Source: Marmoricola endophyticus
GTDB lineage: Bacteria > Actinomycetota > Actinomycetes > Propionibacteriales > Nocardioidaceae
Length of the DNA stretch: 64,000 nt
Assembly (NCBI RefSeq): GCF_014644415.1
Contig: NZ_BMKQ01000001.1
Coordinates: 1,912,861 to 1,976,860, forward strand
Direction of reading: 5' to 3'
A program made the position numbers and the translations under genes. The notes under the pieces were generated by a model. The model did no database searches. It was given only the letters and a program-made list of their open reading frames with translations, and had not been told where the DNA came from. This document shows, in pieces, positions 18,780 through 37,263 of this stretch. Position 1 is the first letter of the stretch. Each line of letters begins with the position of its first letter.

Positions 18780-18807
18780 CGTAACCTCGGCCACACTCAC
18801 GCGTTGA
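18780..18807 (+). promoter_or_regulatory. BldN-type ECF sigma factor promoter
   Basis: CGTAAC (18780-18785), a 16-bp spacer and CGTTGA (18802-18807) match the consensus reported for Streptomyces BldN exactly. Transcription would start near 18814, about 55 nt before the lytic transglycosylase start. A similar site precedes the anti-sigma gene at 33278. The match is seen in the sequence; the sigma factor assignment is inference. Confidence 0.65.
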
Positions 18808-18817
18808 CGTGACGAGG

Positions 18818-18840
18818 GTTACCCCTGGCGGAGGGGTAAC
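18818..18840. repeat. 9-bp perfect inverted repeat at the predicted transcript start
   Basis: GTTACCCCT (18818-18826) and AGGGGTAAC (18832-18840) are exact reverse complements separated by GGCGG. The element lies just after the predicted start of the BldN-type promoter and 30 bp before the ATG. It could be an operator or a 5' mRNA hairpin. The arms contain GTAAC/GTTAC, the core of reported MtrA boxes, so control by a two-component regulator is another possibility. Confidence 0.6.
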
Positions 18841-18869
18841 GGGGAGAGCAACAGAAGGTAGTGCGGTCC

Positions 18870-20180
18870 ATGGCATCGAAGAAGCTGACTCGTCGCCAGA
18901 AGGCGATGACGATCGTCCCGCTCGCCATCGTGTGCGGCGTCTGGACCGCGAGTCTCGGCGGCCTCGGCGCGGCGACCGCGGTGGACGCGAAGATCGAGCC
19001 GAAGCTCCCCGACGGCGCCTCCGTCCCGTCCGAGGCGATCCAGGCGCCGGCCAACGTCTCGCTGCCCGGCGTCGTCGCCCCCGGCGTGCCCAACGGCGCG
19101 ACCGACTCGGTCGTCGACGGCGCCTCGACCAGCGGCATCCCGTCCGCGGCGCTGTCCGCCTACCAGCGCGGAGCCCAGATCATCGACTCCGCCGACACCA
19201 CCTGCAAGATCCCGTGGGAGCTGATCGCGGCGATCGGCCGCGTCGAGTCCGACCACGGCCGCTACGGCGGCAACGTGCTGTCCGCCCAGGGCGTGAGCAC
19301 GCCGGGCATCTACGGCATCCCGCTCGACGGCACCAACGGCACCATCAAGGTGCCCGACACCGACGCCGGCCAGCTCGACAAGGACCCGGTCTGGGACCGC
19401 GCCGTCGGCCCGATGCAGTTCATCCCCAGCACCTGGTCCTCGGTGAAGGTCGACGCCGACGGCGACGGCCAGCGCAACCCCCAGGACATCGACGACGCCT
19501 CGCTCGCGACCGCCGTCTACCTCTGCTCCGGCTCCGACGACCTGTCGACGACCGCCGGCCAGCGCGCGTCGGTCTACCGCTACAACCACAGCCAGTCCTA
19601 CGTCGACCTCGTGCTGCGGCTGATGCAGGCGTACTCCCAGGGCGACTACACGGCCGTCCCGAACAGCACCACCTCCGGCTCGCTGTACTCGCTGACCAGC
19701 GAGGGCGGGACGACGTCGTTCGGCAGCGGCAGCAGCAAGGCCGGCGCCAAGGGCGGCAAGGCCGGCAAGGGAGCGACCGGCGGCGGCTCCGGTAAGGCTG
19801 GTACCCCCGGGACGGCAACGGCGCCTGGTTCGTCGGCCACAAGCCCGAGCAGCCCGAGCAGCCCGGCGGGTCCTAGCGGCCCGAAGGGCCCCAGCGACAA
19901 TCCCACCAAGAAGGCCGGCGATGCCACCAAGAAGGCGGTCGAGAACGCGACCAACGGCTTGAAGAAGACCGTCGACGACACGATCAGCGATCTGAAGGCC
20001 CAGTCGCTGTGTATTGGCGCGAACAAGCAGATCGAGAATTTCCCCAAGTTGTTGAGTCAGTGCGTGGCGGATTTGACGGTCAAGACCCTGTCCGACGCGA
20101 CCGCCAATGCTCGAAGCGTGGTTGGGACACTTCTCGAAGACGTGCTCGGACTCGGCGGCATCCTCGGCCGAAACAGCTGA
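18870..20180 (+). CDS. Secreted lytic murein transglycosylase
   Basis: The protein has an N-terminal signal or membrane anchor (hydrophobic about residues 15-38), then a lysozyme-like fold: IPWELIAAIGRVESDHGRYGG with the catalytic glutamate in RVESD, GPMQFIPSTWSSV, the metal-loop-like DADGDGQRNPQDIDD, and ATAVYLCSG. After about residue 270 comes a long Gly/Ala/Lys/Ser/Pro tail and a helical end with two cysteines (SLCIG, LSQCVADL). It should cleave peptidoglycan glycan strands outside the cell. ATG 18870 is used; GTG 18861 in frame is possible, and AAGG at 18855 fits both. The 3' end uses A/T third positions more freely than neighbours. Confidence 0.88.
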   Translation: MASKKLTRRQKAMTIVPLAIVCGVWTASLGGLGAATAVDAKIEPKLPDGASVPSEAIQAPANVSLPGVVAPGVPNGATDSVVDGASTSGIPSAALSAYQRGAQIIDSADTTCKIPWELIAAIGRVESDHGRYGGNVLSAQGVSTPGIYGIPLDGTNGTIKVPDTDAGQLDKDPVWDRAVGPMQFIPSTWSSVKVDADGDGQRNPQDIDDASLATAVYLCSGSDDLSTTAGQRASVYRYNHSQSYVDLVLRLMQAYSQGDYTAVPNSTTSGSLYSLTSEGGTTSFGSGSSKAGAKGGKAGKGATGGGSGKAGTPGTATAPGSSATSPSSPSSPAGPSGPKGPSDNPTKKAGDATKKAVENATNGLKKTVDDTISDLKAQSLCIGANKQIENFPKLLSQCVADLTVKTLSDATANARSVVGTLLEDVLGLGGILGRNS

Positions 20181-32361: not shown

Positions 32362-33156
32362 GTGCTCGAGCGTCCGCACGACGGCCTCGACGCGCTGCGT
32401 CGCGCCCTCGCCCGGGTGCTCGCCGACCCGTCCCTCGCGCTCCCCACCCCGGCGCTCGCGGGCGGCCCCCCGGTCCACCGGAGGGCGGGCCTGCCGGGTC
32501 TCCTCGCCCACGAGACGGCGGCCGACCCGAGCACGGGGACCCTCGACCGGCCGCCGGGTGAGCCCGCCGACCACGACCTGGCCGTCTCCTCGGCGGAGGA
32601 CGAGGCCGAGCGGAGCCGGCTGATCGCGCTGGTGGAGCTGGCCCGCGGCGGGGACAAGGACGCCTTCGGCCTCCTGTACGACCACTACCAGCCCTCGGTC
32701 TACCGGTTCCTCTACTACCGGCTCGGCGTCGTGCAGCTGGCCGAGGACCTGACGGCCGAGACCTTCTTCCGCGCACTGCGCAGCATGAACGGCTTCCGCT
32801 GGCAGGGCCGTGACTTCGGTGCCTGGCTGATGACGATCGCGCGGAACCTGACCGTGGACCACTACAAGTCGAGCCGGACGCGCCTGGAGCAGACCACCGA
32901 GGACATCGGGACCCTGGACGCAGCCACCGACGGGCCGGAGGCCGACGTGCTCGCCTCGCTCACGAACGAGGCGCTGCTCGACGCCGTCCGCGCGCTGCCC
33001 GTCGACCAGCAGGAGTGCCTGACCATGCGTTTCCTGCAGGGACTCTCCCTGGCCGAGACCGCCGAGGCCATGGAGCGCAGCTCCGGCGCCATCAAGCAGC
33101 TGCAGCTGCGTGCGGTGCGCAACCTCGCCAAGCACCTCCCCGAGGAGTGGCGATGA
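32362..33156 (+). CDS. BldN-like ECF sigma factor with N-terminal pro-sequence
   Basis: The 264-residue protein has sigma region 2 (about 88-155: AFGLLYDHYQPSVYRFLYYR, LAEDLTAETFFRAL, GAWLMTIARNLTVDHYKS) and region 4 (about 200-260: LPVDQQECLTMRFLQGLSLAETAEAM, SGAIKQLQLRAVRNLA). It has about 86 residues before region 2. Streptomyces BldN is made with a pro-sequence of about this length that is removed by proteolysis, and the next gene is an RsbN-like anti-sigma factor as for bldN. GTG 32362 follows GGGAGGGAGGCGGAG closely. A TACAGT hexamer at 32311 may be part of its promoter. Confidence 0.9.
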   Translation: MLERPHDGLDALRRALARVLADPSLALPTPALAGGPPVHRRAGLPGLLAHETAADPSTGTLDRPPGEPADHDLAVSSAEDEAERSRLIALVELARGGDKDAFGLLYDHYQPSVYRFLYYRLGVVQLAEDLTAETFFRALRSMNGFRWQGRDFGAWLMTIARNLTVDHYKSSRTRLEQTTEDIGTLDAATDGPEADVLASLTNEALLDAVRALPVDQQECLTMRFLQGLSLAETAEAMERSSGAIKQLQLRAVRNLAKHLPEEWR

Positions 33157-33205: not shown

Positions 33206-33234
33206 CGTAACCTCCGCACCCCGTGAGTCGTTGT
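33206..33234 (+). promoter_or_regulatory. BldN-type ECF promoter before the anti-sigma gene
   Basis: CGTAAC (33206-33211) and CGTTGT (33229-33234) are 17 bp apart, one more than the BldN consensus and one mismatch in the -10. It lies in the 121-bp gap before the anti-sigma gene. In Streptomyces rsbN is itself a BldN target, so a feedback loop is plausible here. Confidence 0.55.
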
Positions 33235-33277: not shown

Positions 33278-34498
33278 ATGATCGACTTCTCGGGGCCTGC
33301 GGCCCTGCGCGCACGACCGGCCGAGCGGTTCGCTCGGCTGATCGACGAGGGCGCGGGTGCGACCGGGCCCGCCGACGCGGCGCTGATCGACCTCGTCGGC
33401 GCACTGCGCGCGCTGCCCGAGGCTCCGGCGCCGTCGGCGTCGTACACCGCGGACCTGCGTGAGCGGTTGATGGCCGAGGCCGACACCGCCCTCGTCCCCG
33501 CCGAGCCGCAGCTCCTCCTGCCCGAGGTCTCGCGCAGCGGGCGCGCCCGCCGACGCGCCACGGTGGCCGCGGCCGCGGCCGTGCTGGTCGGCAGCACCGG
33601 CGGCCTCGCCGTCGCGGCCCAGGGCACCGTCGAGGGCGACCCGTTGTACGGCGTCAAGCGCGGCATCGAGGCGATGACCACCTCGATGAGCCTCTCCGAG
33701 GCCTCCCGCGGCCAGGACTACCTCGACCAGTCCCGCACCCGCCTCGCCGAGGTCTCGACGCTGATGGCCGACGACCCCGACGTCTCGTCGCGCACCGCTG
33801 ACGCCGTCCGCTCCACCCTGGCCCGATTCGCCTCGAGCGCTGCCGAGGGGTCGGACCTGCTGTTCACGAGCTACCAGCGCGACGCGTCGGCCGACCACGT
33901 CGCCAGCGTCCGGTCGTTCGCCGGGACGTCGATGCGCGACCTGGACGCCGTCGCCGCCGAGGCACCGCCGAGCATGCAGGACGCCCTGTCCGAGGCGGCG
34001 ACGATGCTCACCGACCTGGACCAGCAGGCGCGCGTGCTCTGCGCCGCGTGCGGCGCCCGTGAGCCGCTCGCGCTCACCACGACCCTGGAGCCGGCGTCGG
34101 CCAAGGGTGCGCTGGACCGGCTGATCGAGTCGGGGACGGCGGGTGCGCGCCCCGCCTCGCCCGCTCCCGGTGCGAAGCGGTCGCAGCCCGCGACGTCGCC
34201 GTCGGGCAGCACGACGGCTCCGGGGTCGTCGAGGTCGCCCGCCCCGGCGTCGACGACGGCACCCGGCACGGCCGCCCAGAAGCAGGCCGGGAAGGCCGCG
34301 GGACGAGCGAGAGGTACGACGTCCTCGGCCCCGGCACTGGACGGTCTGGTCAAGCTTCCCGGCAGCCAGTCCGGTGCTCCGTCGGTGATCGACCTGGACA
34401 AGCTGACCAAGGACCTGACCGACGGGCTGACGACGACCACGAAGGGCCTGACCGACGGGCTGGCCAAGGGCCTGAACGGCTCTCGCACGACCCCCTAG
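33278..34498 (+). CDS. RsbN-like transmembrane anti-sigma factor (DUF5667)
   Basis: The 406-residue protein has a cytoplasmic N-terminal domain (about 1-88, expected to bind the sigma factor), one transmembrane helix (about 95-112, ATVAAAAAVLVGSTGGLAVA) and an extracytoplasmic DUF5667 domain beginning GDPLYGVKRGIEAM. A CAAC pair lies near residues 251-254. The rest is Pro/Ser/Thr/Lys-rich, ending with a repeated LTDGL segment. It probably holds the upstream BldN-like sigma factor inactive at the membrane. ATG 33278 is supported by AGGACCAG upstream, though the ribosome site is weak. Confidence 0.86.
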   Translation: MIDFSGPAALRARPAERFARLIDEGAGATGPADAALIDLVGALRALPEAPAPSASYTADLRERLMAEADTALVPAEPQLLLPEVSRSGRARRRATVAAAAAVLVGSTGGLAVAAQGTVEGDPLYGVKRGIEAMTTSMSLSEASRGQDYLDQSRTRLAEVSTLMADDPDVSSRTADAVRSTLARFASSAAEGSDLLFTSYQRDASADHVASVRSFAGTSMRDLDAVAAEAPPSMQDALSEAATMLTDLDQQARVLCAACGAREPLALTTTLEPASAKGALDRLIESGTAGARPASPAPGAKRSQPATSPSGSTTAPGSSRSPAPASTTAPGTAAQKQAGKAAGRARGTTSSAPALDGLVKLPGSQSGAPSVIDLDKLTKDLTDGLTTTTKGLTDGLAKGLNGSRTTP

Positions 34499-36946: not shown

Positions 36947-37153
36947 TCAGCCGGTCTGGAAGAAGGAGCCCTTGAGGTACTCGTTGACGTCGCTCTCGCT
37001 GACCCGGAAGGAGCGCCCGACACGGACCGCCGGCAGCTCACCGGAGTGCAGCAGGCGGTAGACCGTCATCTTGGAGACGCGCATGACCGAGGCCACCTCG
37101 GCCACGGTCAGGAACTTGACCTCGGAGATGTCCCCGTTGAGGTTCGAGCTCAT
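36947..37153 (-). CDS. bldC: BldC-family DNA-binding protein (MerR-like helix-turn-helix)
   Basis: The 68-residue protein equals Streptomyces BldC in length. It is a single winged helix-turn-helix: FLTVAEVASVMRVSKMTVYRLLHSGELPAVRVGRSFRV, then ESDVNEYLKGSF. BldC binds direct repeats cooperatively and holds back development in Streptomyces; its orthologue Rv0500A is conserved in non-sporulating relatives. ATG 37153 fits the family start; the longer frame to 37246 covers the promoter, where TATCCT (37210-37205 on this strand) is a -10 candidate. Confidence 0.93.
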   Translation of the reverse strand: MSSNLNGDISEVKFLTVAEVASVMRVSKMTVYRLLHSGELPAVRVGRSFRVSESDVNEYLKGSFFQTG

Positions 37154-37263
37154 CTGCACACCACTTTCGCACTGGCGCGGAAGGCTCCGCGCGTCGTTCA
37201 AGTGAGGATAGGGCCTCGTGTGACTGTTGGGGAAGTCGAACCCCATTAATCGTCTCAGTCAGC

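Follow-up and report, generated by a model that had tools for sequence, protein, structure and literature searches.

A predicted BldN-type promoter before a lytic transglycosylase gene and a candidate surface-gene regulon in Marmoricola endophyticus

Results

A conserved promoter-like site precedes a lytic transglycosylase gene

The 64-kb stretch of Marmoricola endophyticus DNA analysed here (the window) encodes a lytic transglycosylase (LT), an ECF sigma factor of the BldN family and an RsbN-like protein, and carries closely similar promoter-like sites before the LT gene and before the rsbN-like gene (Table 1). The initial annotation had read CGTAAC, 16 bp and CGTTGA at 18780–18807 and the LT ATG at 18870, and this is exact.

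Table 1. Features of the window discussed in the text
Feature	Position	Strand	Basis
-35 element CGTAAC	18780..18785	+	sequence; aligned CGT[AG]AC in 20/22 genus LT orthologues
-10 element CGTTGA	18802..18807	+	sequence; CGTT kept in the same 20/22 genus LT orthologues
Predicted transcription start region	18813..18815	+	inferred from start-codon peak at genus sites
Inverted repeat in predicted 5' leader, 9-bp stem	18818..18840	+	fold z -3.2 (window)
LT gene, SLT_2/MltB type, 436 aa, hydrophobic N-terminus	18870..20180	+	Pfam SLT_2, genus orthologues
BldN-family ECF sigma factor gene	32362..33156	+	TIGR02952, PDB 6dxo_A, gene order
Second site CGTAAC-N17-CGTTGT, inferred autoregulatory promoter	33206..33234	+	22/22 genus, 80/80 named loci
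RsbN-like anti-sigma gene with DUF5667 domain	33278..34498	+	Pfam DUF5667; profile match 6dxo_D

CGTAAC-N16-CGTTGA occurs once in the 64-kb window and in neither 100 shuffled windows nor a further set of 200. Allowing up to two mismatches yields 2 matches versus 2.5 expected; only the exact match is therefore informative. The looser pattern C[GA]TAAC-N16/17-CGTT finds two sites, at 18780–18807 and 33206–33232, where 200 shuffles average 0.025, and the second – the window's sole other close motif site – sits between the sigma gene and the rsbN-like gene. A genome-wide motif scan, which the initial annotation had proposed, returned three exact sites in the 3.66-Mb genome and none for a reversed-pattern control; with up to one mismatch there were eight sites versus two control matches.

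An open start codon falls 5–7 nt past the -10 box at 25 of 90 genus sites (6, 8 and 11 per offset, versus mostly 1–3 elsewhere), with repeats of one sequence counted once and two sites from genomes without the sigma (L099, L100) left out. This peak fits transcripts that begin with the start codon itself at those sites. The repeat in the predicted LT leader is GC-rich, and other LT leaders have different stems or none. As a general LT element the hairpin was rejected, with z at or below -1 in just 7 of 19 genus leaders, and there was no known riboswitch before the LT gene, as no Rfam model matched the window at its gathering score.

The LT promoter and its linkage to the sigma gene are conserved

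The LT matches Pfam SLT_2 (PF13406; E 2.4e-10, 40.5 bits, cut-off 24.3) over 43 residues and scores far under the cut-offs of the NCBIfam MltB models, including MltB_2. Its stretch VESDHGRYGG resembles what we take to be the catalytic glutamate region, with the Glu codon at 19245–19247. Matches occur in 23 of 24 genus genomes, one of them weak (G021), leaving strong orthologues in 22.

CGT[AG]AC-N16/17-CGTT precedes 20 of these 22 orthologues (19 plus L019, which has a short upstream flank); of the others, L014 has no site and L025 a degenerate one. Among the 19 aligned promoters, 18 have CGTGAC as the -35 element, leaving CGTAAC unique to the window, and the spacer is 16 bp in 16 and 17 bp in three. 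The LT promoter of the genus is therefore one base off the exact motif seen elsewhere. No site was found before second LT-like copies in three genomes (G008, G012 and G017; L032, L034 and L033, respectively). Among the named loci – the best 80 of 390 relatives, partly the same genomes as the genus set – the site is present in four of the six with at least 100 bp upstream of the LT. L259, an LT from a different family that is 45% identical across 347 aa, stands behind an exact site. These observations support the LT as a probable member of the motif-bearing set, and by its sequence and conservation the site at 18780–18807 is most probably a real BldN-type promoter.

The two genomes without an LT orthologue (G021, G022) also lack an orthologue of the sigma. 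The initial annotation described the LT promoter as far from the sigma gene. The start codons are indeed 13.5 kb apart, but the linkage is conserved, so that the distance is not meaningfully far: LT and sigma genes share a contig and strand in 18 of 22 genus genomes, with starts 8.6–14.8 kb apart, and lie on different contigs in the other four, all assemblies of at least 200 contigs.

A BldN-family sigma factor is encoded beside an RsbN-like protein

The sigma, drawn with an approximate GTG start, has TIGR02952 (BldN) as its best NCBIfam model, at 175 bits and below the curated cut-off of 206. Its best PDB match is 6dxo_A (177 bits; next, 59 bits). The gene order hemB, hemCD, hemA, glutaredoxin, HAD hydrolase, sigma, DUF5667 gene, epimerase, HTH protein, AcuC is common to the window and to two loci, L296 and L297, that appear to come from Streptomyces or Streptomyces-like genomes. 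It is partly kept in eight further loci, all but L303 being from families other than that of the window; L299 shows just hemA, glutaredoxin, HAD and sigma, and L302 is a short stretch. A DUF5667 match is absent at 3 of the 10 wider sigma loci (L299, L304, L305). A small HTH_17 protein (36947–37246) weakly matches the BldC model, and its place near the sigma is kept in 9 of these 10 loci.

We take PDB 6dxo to be the RsbN–BldN complex. That complex is named in the available passages of PMC7406223 and PMC8103513. A profile of 35 relatives of the RsbN-like protein had as its top match the S. venezuelae chain 6dxo_D (E 0.0013, profile positions 1–73; next, 0.2); the window's protein, used as a single sequence, gave no RsbN match. 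Since chain A matches the sigma, we read chain D as RsbN, the depositors' label being 'BldN'. A structure model of the RsbN-like protein has N-terminal helices at 14–24, 31–44 and 54–71 and a long helix that would fit a membrane anchor; a fold search with this model returned nothing at E below 0.001. RsbN binds through three helices, according to a passage of PMC7406223 in which the two names are exchanged. The RsbN-like protein probably binds and inhibits the sigma.

A C[AG]TAAC-N17-CGTT site lies between the sigma and rsbN-like genes in 22 of 22 genus loci, at a null rate of 0.002 per region and with none of 22 on the opposite strand. Of the best 80 of 390 relatives, all 80 have both a DUF5667 gene and the intergenic site, reading CGTTG in 53 and CGTT plus another base in 27. 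L296 and L297 carry CGTAAC-N17-CGTTGT before their rsbN-like genes, identical to the window, and CGTAAC-N16/17-CGTT stands beside the sigma in 8 of the 10 wider loci (not in L302 or L305). The part of the review PMC4255298 available to us gives S. venezuelae rsbN its own BldN-dependent promoter.

The motif is enriched where the sigma is present

Across the 24 genus genomes, CGTRAC-N16-CGTTGA occurs at 108 sites, versus 9 for reversed-pattern controls. The excess is confined to genomes with the sigma: sites and controls number 104 and 4 in the 22 genomes that have it, and 4 and 5 in the two that do not. We extended the comparison to 196 Actinomycetes genomes, calling the sigma at E 1e-45 (80 with, 116 without); the 96 genomes without a match were assumed to be common to the motif and sigma searches. 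The exact motif occurs 64 times versus 4 controls in genomes with the sigma, and 13 times versus 17 where the sigma was not found. At least one exact site is present in 46 of 80 sigma-bearing genomes versus 13 of 116 others (Fisher p 4e-12, or 6e-7 with family f18, 18 genomes, removed; both values are too small, the genomes being related), and 34 of the 80 have none.

Family f18 is presumably Streptomyces. Nearly the same exact site is shared by 17 of its 18 genomes, and in the one read (L256) it lies 125 nt before a response regulator that we take to be BldM-like. CGTAAC-N16-CGTTGA itself is, we presume, the promoter consensus of Streptomyces BldN. We assign the motif to the BldN-type sigma because a version of it adjoins the sigma gene in all 80 named loci and the exact motif exceeds its control just where the sigma is found. 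Its enrichment in sigma-bearing genomes and its place before the BldM-like gene suggest a shared promoter code, which together with the conserved rsbN neighbourhood supports the sigma as a BldN orthologue.

Predicted targets are largely surface, secreted or envelope proteins

The initial annotation predicted a regulon in which the sigma controls a wall-cutting enzyme. The tie between motif and sigma, the sites at 20 of 22 LT genes and the other surface or secreted genes behind the motif support this prediction. We examined the genes downstream of 93 of the 108 genus sites, 91 of which had a candidate frame; 53 of these genes fall into 15 groups and 38 are single. By our reading, 38 of the 53 grouped genes encode surface, secreted or envelope proteins: Ig-like secreted (7), beta-propeller-like secreted (6), anchored by a C-terminal tail (6), LT (5 in the examined set), serine-protease-like (4), another anchored kind (3), YrbE-like Mce permeases (3), MceG-like ATPases (2) and PhoD-like (2). 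The remaining 15 comprise small proteins of two kinds (4 and 3), MetK (2) and three pairs, one with a poor frame. Pfam searches with nine target proteins left six without a family and identified Sortase (L266, from another family), Lipase_2 (L005) and ABC_tran (L001).

L001, from the M. endophyticus genome (C1:1701565), has an exact site 75 nt before a MceG/MlaF-like ATPase gene that follows rplL. MceG-like genes with a site were found at four loci from three families (L001, L142, L260, L262) in the same site–gene arrangement; with the L001 protein, that of L260 shares 79% identity and that of L262 82%. We regard the LT gene as one candidate in a conserved group of genes behind the motif whose products are surface, secreted or envelope proteins.

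Two classes of known BldN target were also considered. No BldM relative was found at E 1e-30 in the M. endophyticus genome, and a relative at 38–45% identity occurs in 6 of the 24 genomes of the genus; the missing relative concerns the target set and not the descent of the sigma. Chaplin domains occur in 6 of 24 genus genomes. In M. endophyticus the one protein of this kind, which is long and ends in LPQTG, has two chaplin-domain matches over the cut-off (L312, C1:2868500–2875500). We rejected its gene as a target: the ~3 kb upstream holds just a poor AGTAAC-N16-CGTTTT, ~1.3 kb away.

A CGTGACCGAGTGG-like sequence ending in CGTTGA recurs at nine of the 93 examined sites (L097, L098, L129, L133, L136, L138, L147, L148 and L165, from G016, G019 and G020), six of them before a poor reading frame or none. 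These sites, retained in the motif counts, may belong to a scattered repeat resembling the promoter.

A small-RNA-like element lies behind some sites

The third exact site of the M. endophyticus genome (L003, C1:2898702) lies 248 nt before guaA. CGTTGA followed by CCACCCTCCCTCCCC within 85–115 nt occurs in 21 of 148 family genomes, versus none for the control; the M. endophyticus genome does not have that pattern. Among 20 such elements read (L276–L295), CGTAAC-N16 precedes 19 and CATAAC one. Three hairpins form in most of them, the first and the last carrying CUCCCUCCC in the loop, and the M. endophyticus copy has one such hairpin. Covariation is visible at 12 of 30 predicted pairs, which change on both sides yet stay paired. 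Four copies (L003, L270, L273, L274) sit upstream of guaA. None of these four matched Rfam at the cut-off; a sub-threshold match to ar14 (best E 0.0094, 30.7 bits versus a cut-off of 58.8) was taken as similar shape only. As a guess, a small RNA with C-rich loops might pair with ribosome-binding sites.

Discussion

We propose, with a probability of about 0.85, that the promoter at 18780–18807 is read by the BldN-orthologous sigma encoded at 32362–33156, that the RsbN-like protein holds this sigma, and that the LT belongs to a conserved surface and envelope set. The model that follows, drawn from comparison of sequences, treats sigma binding and sigma dependence, the start site, membrane holding, the signal, release and the enzymatic activity of the LT as putative. 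At rest, the RsbN-like protein would hold the sigma at the membrane until some signal from the envelope or outside freed it. RNA polymerase with the freed sigma would then start near 18814 and transcribe the LT gene, and would also transcribe the rsbN-like gene from 33206–33234, giving negative feedback. By cutting wall strands, the LT would serve insertion or the separation of cells.

Another ECF sigma with overlapping specificity, for example of the SigD/ShbA type, might instead use the site. GTAAC-like boxes are shared by several ECF sigmas, the -35 box of the SigD/ShbA type among them, and among named models ShbA ranks second in similarity to the window's sigma, the general superfamily aside. 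The M. endophyticus genome has 11 sigma genes by a region-2 family search, however, and none of the six other ECF-type proteins scanned there is of the SigD/ShbA type. With the motif excess following the BldN-type sigma through the 196 genomes, and the motif beside that sigma in every named locus, we regard a different sigma as improbable.

We consider it highly improbable that the site is not a promoter but an operator for a regulator of the MtrA or GlnR type, both of which bind GTAAC repeats. GTAAC does occur three times in 18781–18840, once on the other strand, and the inverted repeat at 18818–18840 contains GTAAC as well. Against this, the leader GTAAC repeat is not conserved; relatives instead keep two boxes 16–17 bp apart, the first containing GTGAC or GTAAC and the second CGTT, and start codons peak 5–7 nt past the second box. 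The slightest chance goes to a fortuitous match without function: the 13 exact matches among 116 genomes without the sigma and the repeat-like 9 of 93 genus sites show that such matches arise, but position and sequence are kept in 20 of 22 genus orthologues and none of 300 shuffled windows had a match. Reading by the BldN-type sigma thus remains our preferred explanation.

The initial annotation supposed that the bacterium probably has no aerial-hyphae lifestyle, a guess that we treat as tentative. Marmoricola is reportedly coccoid, according to a cited title. The syntenic sigma/RsbN-like pair and the promoter code are present in 22 of 24 genomes of the genus, whose named relatives include Marmoricola. 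The available part of a 2013 review confines convincing syntenic BldN orthologues to morphologically complex genera, without stating whether its Nocardioides strain is one of these, and calls Nocardioides mycelial and sporulating (PMC4255298); several Nocardioides species without aerial mycelium are noted in an excerpt of PMC12890105. We found no description of such a BldN-type regulon in the literature searched, which lacks most subscription papers; in the same literature, BldN, ECF sigma factor and Nocardioides came together just in that review, and DUF5667 was not mentioned.

Streptomyces employs the BldN switch in the formation of aerial filaments. The promoter code before a wall-cutting enzyme and other surface and secreted proteins of a soil actinobacterium hints at surface remodelling as a possibly older role. 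More broadly, and tentatively – at a little under even odds – BldN–RsbN may be an older envelope system, with aerial development not its primary function. Its neighbourhood and code would have been kept in the Nocardioidaceae, coccoid forms included, where it would remodel wall and surface (LT, Mce lipid import, proteases, lipase, anchored proteins); in relatives of Nocardioides it would also make the small RNA with C-rich loops, which could mute mRNAs via their ribosome-binding sites, and bldM, chaplins and rodlins would be later additions in Streptomyces. With the syntenic pair and the promoter code present in this genus, how a developmental sigma arose becomes testable in simple cells, with candidate targets listed.

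Among known systems, MltB and other SLT_2 lytic transglycosylases have the SLT_2 domain in common with the window's LT, which differs in its short Pfam coverage (43 residues) and long C-terminal extension. The promoter boxes of sigma-E differ from BldN-type boxes. The sigma-E envelope stress regulon of S. coelicolor is likewise a cell-wall regulon of an ECF sigma, as the accessible text of PMC6767563 describes it, but sigma-E is a different sigma, for which M. endophyticus carries a SigE-type gene in addition (L042). A paper on sigma-E was also the only one to combine BldN, ChIP-seq, sigma factor and transglycosylase in the literature searched, which covers few subscription papers. The closest counterpart is Streptomyces sigma-BldN/RsbN (PDB 6dxo; ASDIII anti-sigma class), to whose chains A and D the sigma and the profile of its neighbour point, respectively; the gene order and the N17 site before the rsbN-like gene are alike in the Streptomyces-like loci L296 and L297. 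The predicted targets differ: bldM, chaplins and rodlins are key targets of Streptomyces BldN in the part of PMC4125116 available, whereas the site found here precedes the LT and other surface genes.
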